Source: Candidatus Gracilibacteria bacterium (GTDB lineage: Bacteria; Patescibacteriota; Gracilibacteria; BD1-5; UBA6164). Taken from it: 64,000 nucleotides of DNA. The notes beneath the pieces are model-generated. The model saw only the letters and a program-made list of their open reading frames with translations, searched no databases and had not been told where the DNA came from. The DNA lies in contig JAACSU010000007.1 of assembly GCA_010119145.1 (NCBI GenBank), forward strand, positions 267,869 through 331,868, in the 5' to 3' direction. Position numbers and translations under genes: made by a program. Shown in pieces: positions 14,987 to 35,627 of the stretch; within the stretch, counting starts at the first letter, position 1, and the number at the start of each line of letters is the position of its first letter.

Positions 14987-15124
14987 AATTTAGCTTTTAA
15001 AGCTTGCAATCTCATAAATATAATTACACTACAATATAGAAAAGCACTTGAGCAGAAAACACCTGCAATGCTGGAGGAAGAACAGAAACATCTCTTAGTA
15101 GAACCTCTCGAAGTATCTATCTTC
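14987..15124 (+). pseudogene. Possible decayed 3' tail of the pilin gene
   Basis: After the pilin stop, another reading frame (15049-15124) encodes ENTCNAGGRTETSLSR followed by SRSIYLR and TAA, a protein-like Cys/Gly/Arg-rich string out of frame with the pilin and broken from it by at least one TAG. It may be a remnant of a longer pilin C-terminus. The same segment is also the 5' part of the aspS leader, so the similarity to protein may be fortuitous. Confidence 0.3.
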
Positions 15125-15150
15125 GTTAAAAAATAAAAATTAAGCAATAG

Positions 15151-15215
15151 CTTTAGGTGGCACCTTTTGTAGATACTACAAACCAAAAGCACATGAATTT
15201 TTTCGTGTGTTTTTT
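15151..15215 (+). promoter_or_regulatory. T-box antiterminator/terminator element in the aspS leader
   Basis: Two mutually exclusive structures are readable. Antiterminator: helix CTTTAGG (15151-15157) with CCAAAAG (15183-15189), a 7-nt bulge TGGCACC (15158-15164), and an upper helix TTTGTAG/CTACAAA closing on ATA. TGGCACC is exactly the T-box bulge consensus TGGNACC, and its TGGC complements a tRNA 3' end GCCA, as expected for tRNA-Asp (discriminator G). Terminator: AAAAGCACATGAA (15185-15197) with TTCGTGTGTTTTT (15202-15214), including two G-U pairs, then a T tract. The two share 15185-15189. It ends 24 bp before aspS. Stem I and the specifier codon were not resolved. Confidence 0.7.
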
Positions 15216-15238
15216 ATATATTTAAAGAAATTAATACA

Positions 15239-17056
15239 ATGCATAGAAGTCATACCTGTGGAGAGCTCACAGCTAAAAATATAGATGAAACTGTTGTCCT
15301 TTCAGGATGGGTGAGTAATCGTCGAGATCATGGTTGAATTATATTTATTGATCTCAGGGATAGATATGGACTCACTCAAATAGTATTTGATCCTGAAGAT
15401 AACAAAGAAGCCTGGGAAACAGCAGATATGTTTCGAAGTGAGTATGTTATCAAGGCAACTGGGAAAGTTCGAAAGAGACCAGAAGGTCAAGCAAACCCAA
15501 ATATGATAACGGGAGAAATAGAGATAATAATAACATCGGTTGATTTACTCTCAAGCTCTAAAACTCCTCCATTTGAACTCGATGCTCACGCAAAAGAAGC
15601 AAATGAAGAAATCAGATTTAAGTATAGATATCTCGATATCAGAAGACAAAAAATTCAGGATTTTATCAAGTTTCGATCGAGAATGACGACCTATACTCGA
15701 AACTGGTTTACAGGTCGTGATTTCTTAGATGTACAAACTCCAATTCTTGCAAACTCTTCTCCTGAAGGAGCCAGAGATTTTTTAGTTCCAAGTCGACTGA
15801 ATCCTGGAACTTTCTATGCTCTCCCTCAAGCACCACAACAATTTAAGCAACTCCTTATGGTTGGTGGTATTGATAAATACTTTCAAATCGCTCCATGTTT
15901 CAGGGATGAGGATCCACGAGCTGATAGACATGCAGGTGATTTCTATCAGATTGACTGTGAAATGAGTTTTGTAGAACAAGATGATGTATTTAAGGTAGTA
16001 GAGGATTTTCTTATTGATGCTTCAACGGAACTTTCCGATAAAAAAATAATAAGTGAAAATCCAGGGAAAGATCTTATGAGAGAAAATGGTAAATTTTTCA
16101 CCCTCACATACGATGAATCAATTGAAAAATATGGAACAGATAAACCAGACCTAAGATTTGGACTTGAGTTTATTGATGTAGCAGATATTTTTGCAAAAAG
16201 CTCTAATGAAATATTTACAAGTATCGCTTCTGATACTGAAAATAATAGAATCAAAGCTATGAAAGTACATGGTTGAGACTTAGTTTTTTCTAAAACTCAA
16301 ATGAAATGATTTGAGGACTATGTTCGAAAATTTGGTGCAAAAGGTCTCGGGTATTTTCAAATGAAAGAAGACGGCCTCAAAGGTCCACTTGGTAAATTCT
16401 TTGAAGAATCTGATTTACAAGCACTCGTAGAGAGAACAGAACTTTCTCTCTGAGATGTTATATTTTTTGGAGCTGGTGAAACGACTCTTACATGTAACTA
16501 TATGGGGAAGTTTAGAAACTACATTGCAGACTTGATGAAGCTTCGAGATAGCTCTCAACTTGCATTTTGTTGGATAACTGACTTTCCAATGTTTGAAATA
16601 GATGAAGCCACTGGAAAAATAGATTTTTCACATAATCCATTCTCTATGCCTCAATCATCACTTGATGGTCTGAGCTGAGATGAACTCCTTAAAATAAAAG
16701 CATTTCAATATGATCTCTCTTGTAATGGATATGAAATACTTTCAGGTTCTATTCGAAATCACTCGACTCAAAATCTTGTAAAATCTTTCTGAATTGTAGG
16801 AAGAGATGAGTCAGAAGTGAAAGAAAAATTTGGAGCAGTATACGAAGCATTTCAGTATGGTGTCCCTCCTCATGGTGGTTTTGCTATCGGAATGGATAGG
16901 CTCATGATGATATATAAAAACGAAGAAAATATTCGTGATATCTACGCATTTCCTAAATCTGGAAAAGCCCAAGATATGATGATGCAATCACCAATGAAGG
17001 TAGAGGAATCACTCCTTGATGAACTCTCAATCAAAGTTGAGATTGATGAAGATTAA
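15239..17056 (+). CDS. aspS: Aspartyl-tRNA synthetase
   Basis: 605 residues, the size of bacterial AspRS with a GAD insertion. An N-terminal OB anticodon-binding domain ([20 protein letters not shown], residues ~23-42) is followed by the class II core: motif 2 [15 protein letters not shown] near residue 220, and motif 3 [12 protein letters not shown] near residue 547. The charging substrate is tRNA-Asp, and possibly also tRNA-Asn if the enzyme is non-discriminating, which is plausible because GatB and GatC are encoded here. The gene lies behind a T-box-like leader and is closed by a terminator. Its TGA codons are few and lie at glycines, for example in the RRDHGG turn. Confidence 0.95.
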
Positions 17057-34190: not shown

Positions 34191-35627
34191 ATGAAATACG
34201 AAAAAGTTATCGGACTTGAAATACATGTCAGAGTAAAATCAAAAACAAAAATGTTTTGTAGTTGCCAAAATGCTGTAGAACTTGCAAGCGAGGCTAACAT
34301 TCACGTTTGTCCTATTTGTATGTGATTTCCAGGACAACTTCCTGCAATAAATAAAGAAGTTGTAAGACTTTGAGTTGTTGCTTGAATGATGATGCAGTGC
34401 GAGATTAACAAAGTTTCAAGATTTGATAGAAAGAGTTACTTTTATCCTGATCTTCCAAATAGTTTTCAAACGACTCAGTTATTTGAACCGATTGTAGGAG
34501 CATGAAAGGTTGAAGTACTTATAGGTGATGAACAAAAAAGTTTTGATATACATCATATGCATTTAGAAAATGATGCAGGGAAGCTCTCACATGCAGGTGG
34601 AAAAACTCTTTGTGATTATAATCGAGCAGGGAGTCCACTTATGGAGATTGTAACAATGCCTGTGTTTCATGATAGAGATGAGGTTATGGAATTTCTCAAG
34701 GAACTTCAAAAAATTATGAGAGCAGCTGGAGTAAGTGACGCTGATATGGAAAAATGACAACTCAGATGTGACGTGAATATGTCCATTCGACCAGAATGAA
34801 GCAATGAACTTTTTAACAGAACAGAGCACAAAAATGTTAATTCATTTTCTGCTATCGGAAGATGTATTGATACAGAGTACAAAAGACAAGTTAAAATCGT
34901 AGAAGCTGGAAATGAAGTAGTACAGGAAACTCGAGGATGGGATGATGCTACTGGAACGAGTAGTTCTCAACGTTCTAAAGAAGATGCTATGGATTATAGA
35001 TATGTTCCAGAACCGGATATCCTTCCAATCGTACTTGATGATGACTTTTTAGATGCCTGTAGAACTCAAGTTGTTGAGCTTCCAAATACAAAAAGACTTC
35101 GATATCTCAGTGAATATAAGCTTTGAAATGACGATGCTCGTATTCTTACTGCAGATTCAGAACTCTCTAAATACTTTGAAGCATTAGTATCTCTCTCAAA
35201 TGATCCTAAAAAATCATGCAGTTATATAACTTCAGTACTTTTATGAATGATGAACGAAAGTAACAGTGTGTCATCTATAAGTGATCTTAGATTTGATATC
35301 AAAGAACTTTCAAGAGTTATAGAACTCGTTAACTCTGATGAATTATCATCTACAAACGCAAAGTCAGTCATCGAAAACTTATTTAATAACTGATGAAATG
35401 CAGATACTATTGTAGATTCAAATAATCTTCGTCAAAAAAATGATTTATGAGCACTTGAATGAATTGTCGATCAAATTATCTCTGAAAATCCTGAACAAGT
35501 AGAAGATTATAAATCATGAAATGAAAGAGTCTTTTGATTTTTCATCTGACAAGCAATGAAAAAGTCAGCAGGGCAATGAAATCCAAAAGTATTTACAGAG
35601 ATTTTTAAAAAGAAACTCAATACTTAA
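34191..35627 (+). CDS. gatB: Asp/Glu-tRNA amidotransferase subunit B
   Basis: 478 residues, normal length. The opening [20 protein letters not shown], the zinc-type cysteines (CSCQNA near residue 24 and HVCPICMGFPG near 46), the block [20 protein letters not shown] and the [14 protein letters not shown] segment identify GatB. The C-terminal YqeY-like tail ends near residue 478. GatB docks the mischarged tRNA and its C-terminal amidation site. gatC is 30 kb away and gatA is not in the window. The 5' flank lacks a clear Shine-Dalgarno. Confidence 0.95.

Follow-up and report, generated by a model that had tools for sequence, protein, structure and literature searches.

A putative transcription-terminating T-box with an ultrashort Stem I, probably reading tRNA-Asn, in front of aspS in a Gracilibacteria genome

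The aspS gene in the window, the window being the whole 64,000-nucleotide stretch of DNA that was analysed, is preceded by a leader that had been interpreted as a T-box, and this raises the question of what kind of switch the leader is, which tRNA it would read and how far such switches are distributed. The leader recurs upstream of aspS in related genomes with compensatory changes in its helices, giving strong support to the part of the sequence-only reading that places T-box antitermination before aspS. With a probability of about nine in ten, we take positions 15043–15215 to be a transcription-terminating T-box with an ultrashort Stem I of the Class III type, by which tRNA-Asn would act on aspS, and aspS is very probably the gene that the leader regulates.

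Table 1. Positions of leader parts and genes, in window coordinates except where a contig is named
Feature	Position	Strand	Remarks
Candidate promoter	15004-15035	+	TTGCAA 15004-15009, TACAAT 15030-15035; pattern search
Alternative candidate promoter	14996-15024	+	TTTAAA..TATAAT
Ultrashort Stem I	15043-15072	+	k-turn-like hairpin, 30 nt; covariation
Predicted specifier AAC (Asn codon) in Stem I apical loop	15058-15060	+	A15061 next
Stem II with S-turn	15073-15108	+	GAA 15080-15082 opposite AGUAGA 15097-15102; helices covary
Third hairpin CGAAG..CUUCG, then UUA	15109-15128	+	4 of 5 pairs with double changes
Whole antiterminator	15151-15189	+	located by sequence, covariation and coordinates
A1 helix of antiterminator	15151-15157/15183-15189	+	CTTTAGG/CCAAAAG
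T-box bulge of antiterminator	15158-15165	+	UGGC 15158-15161; TGGCACC 15158-15164
A2 helix of antiterminator	15166-15172/15176-15182	+	TTTGTAG/CTACAAA; A2 span 15166-15182
Intrinsic terminator	15185-15215	+	stem 15185-15214 with U-tail; -13.5 kcal/mol
aspS, bacterial-type aspartate--tRNA ligase, code 25	15239-17056	+	NCBIfam TIGR00459, 643 bits (cut-off 374)
gatB, amidotransferase subunit B	34191-35621	+	TIGR00133, 485 bits; G000:C7:302059-303489
Second T-box copy in this genome	G000:C7:616587-616735		before threonine ammonia-lyase gene (ilvA), then Rid-family gene

The helices of the antiterminator and its TGGCACC are located where they had been placed from the sequence, but the geometry is not the exact one then claimed, as the bulge consists of UGGCACC and one extra U (15165) and is 8 nt long, and a single A.A mismatch is found within A1. 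Stem I had been suspected to be reduced, which is borne out by an ultrashort hairpin that covaries in the relatives. Across the copies it is built from a lower helix, a 3-nt bulge, G.A/A.G pairs, a 4-bp helix and a loop of 5–7 nt, and in the window from AGCA/UGCU, the bulge CUU, a 4-bp helix and a 7-nt apical loop. The layout matches that of a k-turn and is called k-turn-like here; the window has GA opposite AA, where most relatives have GA in place of the AA, which counts against the T-box explanation. The third hairpin stands where Stem IIA is expected and is likely the counterpart of a Stem IIA/F-box; no pseudoknot partner for it was recognised in the window or its family. An RNA fold of the 249-nt leader, proposed earlier as a check, gives z = -2.6. 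A long Stem I further upstream was also considered and was not seen; 68 of 79 copies, against 30.3 in shuffles, have a TATAAT-like hexamer just 5' of the ultrashort Stem I, which makes a hidden long Stem I unlikely. The exact promoter used in the window is uncertain.

The aspS loci were taken from 60 related genomes and 30 of them were kept, 15 of which have GGTGGCACC or GGTGGTACC upstream of aspS, and these 15 leaders align from the first hairpin through the antiterminator. Covariation in the aspS leaders of relatives, the outcome that the sequence-only reading depended on, was found in an alignment of 11 aspS leaders, which was N-padded and segmented by hand (plain MAFFT misaligned the helices): 95.5% of the paired cells are standard, 17 of the 33 pairs change on both sides, and the covariation is reached in 0 of 500 shuffles. 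Sliding the partners by 1–3 columns reduces the pairing to 36–49%, a control that is biased in favour of the structure because the structure was derived from the same 11 sequences; more weight is therefore given to the double changes. With 55 copies of both specificities, in an alignment fitted to the model and thus leaning towards the structure, 95.4% of the cells are paired, 28 of 33 pairs have double changes, and 351 double-change cells are counted against 95.7 in shuffles, none of 500 shuffles reaching the observed covariation. Most helices of the leader show compensatory changes in relatives. The S-turn of Stem II follows the pattern GAA / A-N-U-A-G-A, with GAA in 74 of 74 wider copies and U-A-G-A in 73 of 74. 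A pseudoknot between the loop and downstream sequence is found in 18 of 70 wider copies (6.4 in shuffles) and is visible only in some outgroup copies, and a few copies have hairpin insertions at the position of Stem III.

Long insertions are also present in the Stem II or A2 loops of the T-boxes L071, L074, L084, L096 and L119, some of them repeat-like, e.g. the CATTGCGAGGAACGAAGCAATC-type stretches in L096, and they look as though mobile hairpins had inserted themselves into loops that tolerate them.

The terminator had been described as strong and as sharing AAAAG with the antiterminator, and both statements stand, the shared letters being part of the 3' strand of A1, but 23 bases (15216–15238) and not 24 separate it from the ATG of aspS at 15239. 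A terminator scan of 1 kb gives 2 sites, one of them this hairpin, where 0.3 ± 0.6 are expected. In simple folding the antiterminator (-4.9) is weaker than the terminator, as expected of a switch, but this is not proof of one. In 71 of the 79 copies from the order, against 9.6 in shuffles, the 3' strand of A1 is part of a hairpin with a U-tail and an energy of -8 kcal/mol or lower; the energy threshold replaced a looser test that matched 50% of the shuffles. In the wider set an overlapping terminator is less uniformly present than in the order, with 27 of 74 copies (4.4 in shuffles), and by eye the lower count seems to come partly from a misplaced model end in copies with insertions. These hairpins, and in the window the U-tail and the short distance to the ATG, speak against a mainly translational T-box in which the hairpin at 15185–15215 hides the start region. 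We hold such a T-box to be very improbable, even though translation is the usual level of control in the closest solved architecture, the actinobacterial Class III (PMC10482949), and a few distant copies have no U-tail near the hairpin. The latter are L196 and L197, of which one precedes an archaeal-type aspS and the other an ileS-like gene, and where the T-box hairpin adjoins the ATG; they may act on translation, and if so both T-box outputs occur within one phylum. In the relative G010 roughly 200 nt separate the T-box (L029) from aspS, and a TTGACA stretch resembling a promoter lies between terminator and gene, so that transcription of this aspS may also begin at a second site that escapes regulation.

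Over the 79 copies from the order, the loop codon and the bulge are combined as AUC-UGGU (47 copies), AAC-UGGC (29), GAC-UGGC (1) and AAC-UGGU (1), and one copy is without a clear call. The aspS leader L042 of genome G021 is the only AAC copy with UGGU rather than UGGC. The third-base C of the specifier is kept, and a purine follows in most copies. In this genome tRNA-Asn(GUU) and tRNA-Asp(GUC) both end with GCCA and tRNA-Ile(GAU) ends with ACCA, so that UGGC matches the former and UGGU the latter; the GCCA end that had been expected of tRNA-Asp is thus present. As both tRNAs have G73, UGGC cannot separate tRNA-Asp from tRNA-Asn, and the assignment to Asn is made solely by the loop codon. A conserved GAC had been anticipated in the aspS leaders of relatives; AAC is found instead in 30 of the 31 aspS-class copies, and GAC in one relative only (G008), which points to tRNA-Asn as the tRNA that the window leader probably reads. 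A GAU/AAU beside the k-turn was tried as the specifier and rejected: several relatives have GAG there, and the U of this triplet forms part of the lower helix, while the AAC of the loop is conserved.

The AUC copies with UGGU precede ileS/ilvA/ridA operons, and AAC or GAC with UGGC are found at aspS; elsewhere in the phylum GUC loops precede valS and GAC loops precede archaeal-type aspS. The targets were identified by NCBIfam as AspS, IlvA, Rid family, IleS, ValS and archaeal-type AspRS. In many relatives the second copy is the leader of an operon that includes ileS. Loop codon, UGGN base, tRNA discriminator and target gene thus agree over four codons. Reading of tRNA-Asp, or of both tRNAs, with AAC tolerated or not being the specifier at all, would fit the nature of the target gene, the GCCA end shared by tRNA-Asp, the GAC loop of G008 and the GAC before archaeal-type aspS in other lineages of class and phylum. 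It is nevertheless unlikely in view of the near-universal AAC of the aspS-class copies with its kept third-base C and following purine, of the loop codons that elsewhere predict the target (AUC for ileS, GUC for valS), and of the fact that AAC is unable to pair at all three positions with the anticodon GUC.

A tRNA-Asn switch on aspS is a sensible feedback if AspRS charges tRNA-Asn, which is likely. No AsnRS over the cut-off was found in the 60 related genomes with a model that is over the cut-off in 7 of 14 control genomes, and gatB is over the cut-off in 57 of the 60, indicating that AspRS should also feed the synthesis of Asn-tRNA. The product of gatB is needed to convert Asp-tRNA-Asn to Asn-tRNA-Asn, and the most likely route to Asn-tRNA here is that AspRS loads Asp onto tRNA-Asn and GatCAB then acts on the product. 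The AspRS of all 29 readable relatives has His in the RRDHG motif, a residue rule for a non-discriminating AspRS that the literature consulted does not mention and that is therefore not used as evidence. A point against the explanation preferred here is a second AspRS gene of the archaeal type (aspartate--tRNA(Asn) ligase, 448.6 bits, cut-off 353) at G000:C27:2440-3633 (L151), which is located on a separate contig and without a TGA codon and is either a genuine paralogue or contamination; four other relatives have a match of similar score.

R1, a covariance model built from the aspS leaders, matches in 52 of the 60 genomes, often twice per genome. Matches to a further model, R2, were obtained in 108 of 353 genomes of the class and, in an even sample of 380 genomes from the phylum, in 106, and the two copies in this genome score 147 and 129 bits. 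The best R2 score in 34 Campylobacterota genomes, taken as a negative control, is 23.5 bits, and matches under about 30 bits are therefore considered doubtful; few of the phylum matches are that low. Many of the genomes are metagenome assemblies and the filters were strict, so that the copy counts are probably lower bounds. Of 40 phylum copies inspected, nearly all precede a synthetase-like gene (IleS, ValS and archaeal-type AspRS for the representatives that were assigned, the rest judged by eye from the first residues), and their loops contain AUC, GUC, GAC or, once, AAC. A T-box in the code-25 lineage had been put forward, and it is present there, but it is not confined to that lineage, R2 relatives being found in many families of both class and phylum. 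Related switches thus very probably occur across much of the uncultured phylum Patescibacteria, judging from these matches. No report of T-boxes in candidate-phylum bacteria was found in a literature search made mostly without subscription journals.

The Rfam T-box model, to which the sequence-only reading had turned for a check, gives no match on the window, neither at the gathering score nor at E ≤ 10, and with RF00230 none of 117 genomes of the class reaches the gathering score (93 bits). Several R2 relatives in other families obtain 31–53 bits with the same model (E 6e-9 to 3e-3), below gathering but with significant E-values, which links the R2 group to the T-box family by homology. The absence of an Rfam call would suit another kind of attenuator, a leader peptide or a protein-binding RNA, that resembles a T-box by coincidence; this we regard as extremely improbable given the significant scores of the relatives, the conserved S-turn and the agreement of codon, UGGN, discriminator and target over four codons. 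In other families of the class, T-boxes whose 5' part is longer and whose bulge has UGGA were noted before thrS (L168, L169, L170, L205, L209 and L210) and glyS (L207 and L208), with Rfam scores of 30–48 bits, under the cut-off. It appears likely, with less confidence than for the window leader itself, that uncatalogued ultrashort T-boxes with Asn, Asp, Ile or Val codons, mainly terminating transcription, are spread phylum-wide, and that aspS in Gracilibacteria is governed by uncharged tRNA-Asn, the indirect Asn-tRNA pathway feeding back on AspRS.

For the window leader as a T-box reading tRNA-Asn we propose the following course. RNA polymerase would first transcribe Stem I and Stem II, the AAC of the loop would pair with the anticodon GUU of tRNA-Asn, and the S-turn of Stem II would brace this pairing. 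With an uncharged tRNA, the GCCA end would pair with the UGGC of the bulge, the antiterminator would be held and aspS transcribed; if it is aminoacylated, the antiterminator would lack this stabilisation, AAAAG would join the terminator and transcription would stop before aspS. The comparisons show the anatomy, the covariation, the agreement of codon, UGGN and gene, the matching tRNA ends and the overlap of the terminator; that the tRNA is bound, that its charge is sensed and that readthrough follows we infer from the T-box family, and we likewise infer that tRNA-Asn is preferred to tRNA-Asp. The output of AspRS on its second tRNA would in this manner control its own gene, as AspRS is the likely source of the charge on tRNA-Asn. 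The T-box should not separate Asp-tRNA-Asn from Asn-tRNA-Asn, because it senses the presence of an amino acid.

Four classes of T-box are distinguished; those of Class III have a short Stem I with the specifier in the apical loop and depend on Stem II, and in Classes III and IV it is mostly translation that is controlled (PMC10482949). Transcriptional T-boxes have been described as generally requiring a long Stem I with the elbow-binding motif (PMC7583486), and T-boxes as a whole as almost restricted to Firmicutes, Actinobacteria and a small number of other phyla (PMC2494555). The present leaders resemble the Class III ileS T-boxes of Nocardia farcinica and Mycobacterium tuberculosis (PMC10482949, PMC7583486) in the short Stem I with k-turn and apical-loop specifier, the k-turn being judged here by sequence and pairing only, in the absence of an elbow-binding distal motif, in the sequence pattern of the S-turn and in the bulge UGGNACC. 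The bulged G of the Stem II S-turn has been described as replaceable (PMC7583486), which fits the G/U/C variation found here. They differ in that the window leader is coupled to an intrinsic transcription terminator, in having specifiers for Asn, Asp, Ile and Val and not only Ile, in an apical loop of 5–7 nt against the published 5–6 nt, and in belonging to another phylum, with a IIA/B pseudoknot that is not recognisable and a Stem III that is mostly absent in the window family. With Class I (Bacillus subtilis tyrS type; Rfam RF00230) the leader shares the antiterminator/terminator switch, the UGGN bulge and the decoding of a specifier, but it is without the long Stem I, the distal double T-loop motif, the internal-loop specifier and an Rfam match. 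The thrS and glyS T-boxes mentioned above are from the same class of organisms and also have an antiterminator, in their case with UGGA, but differ by the longer 5' part and by other specificities. A minimal Stem I is here joined to a terminator, in a group that is widely distributed in one large phylum and goes unrecognised by the standard model. Two questions arise, namely how so short a Stem I can capture a tRNA before the polymerase has moved on, and whether the age and the distribution of T-boxes have been underestimated. The leaders also point towards control by amino acids in reduced, uncultured bacteria, with a synthetase gene apparently tuned to the second tRNA substrate of the enzyme. 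We therefore class the leader among the T-boxes built like those of Class III, with transcription as its output.
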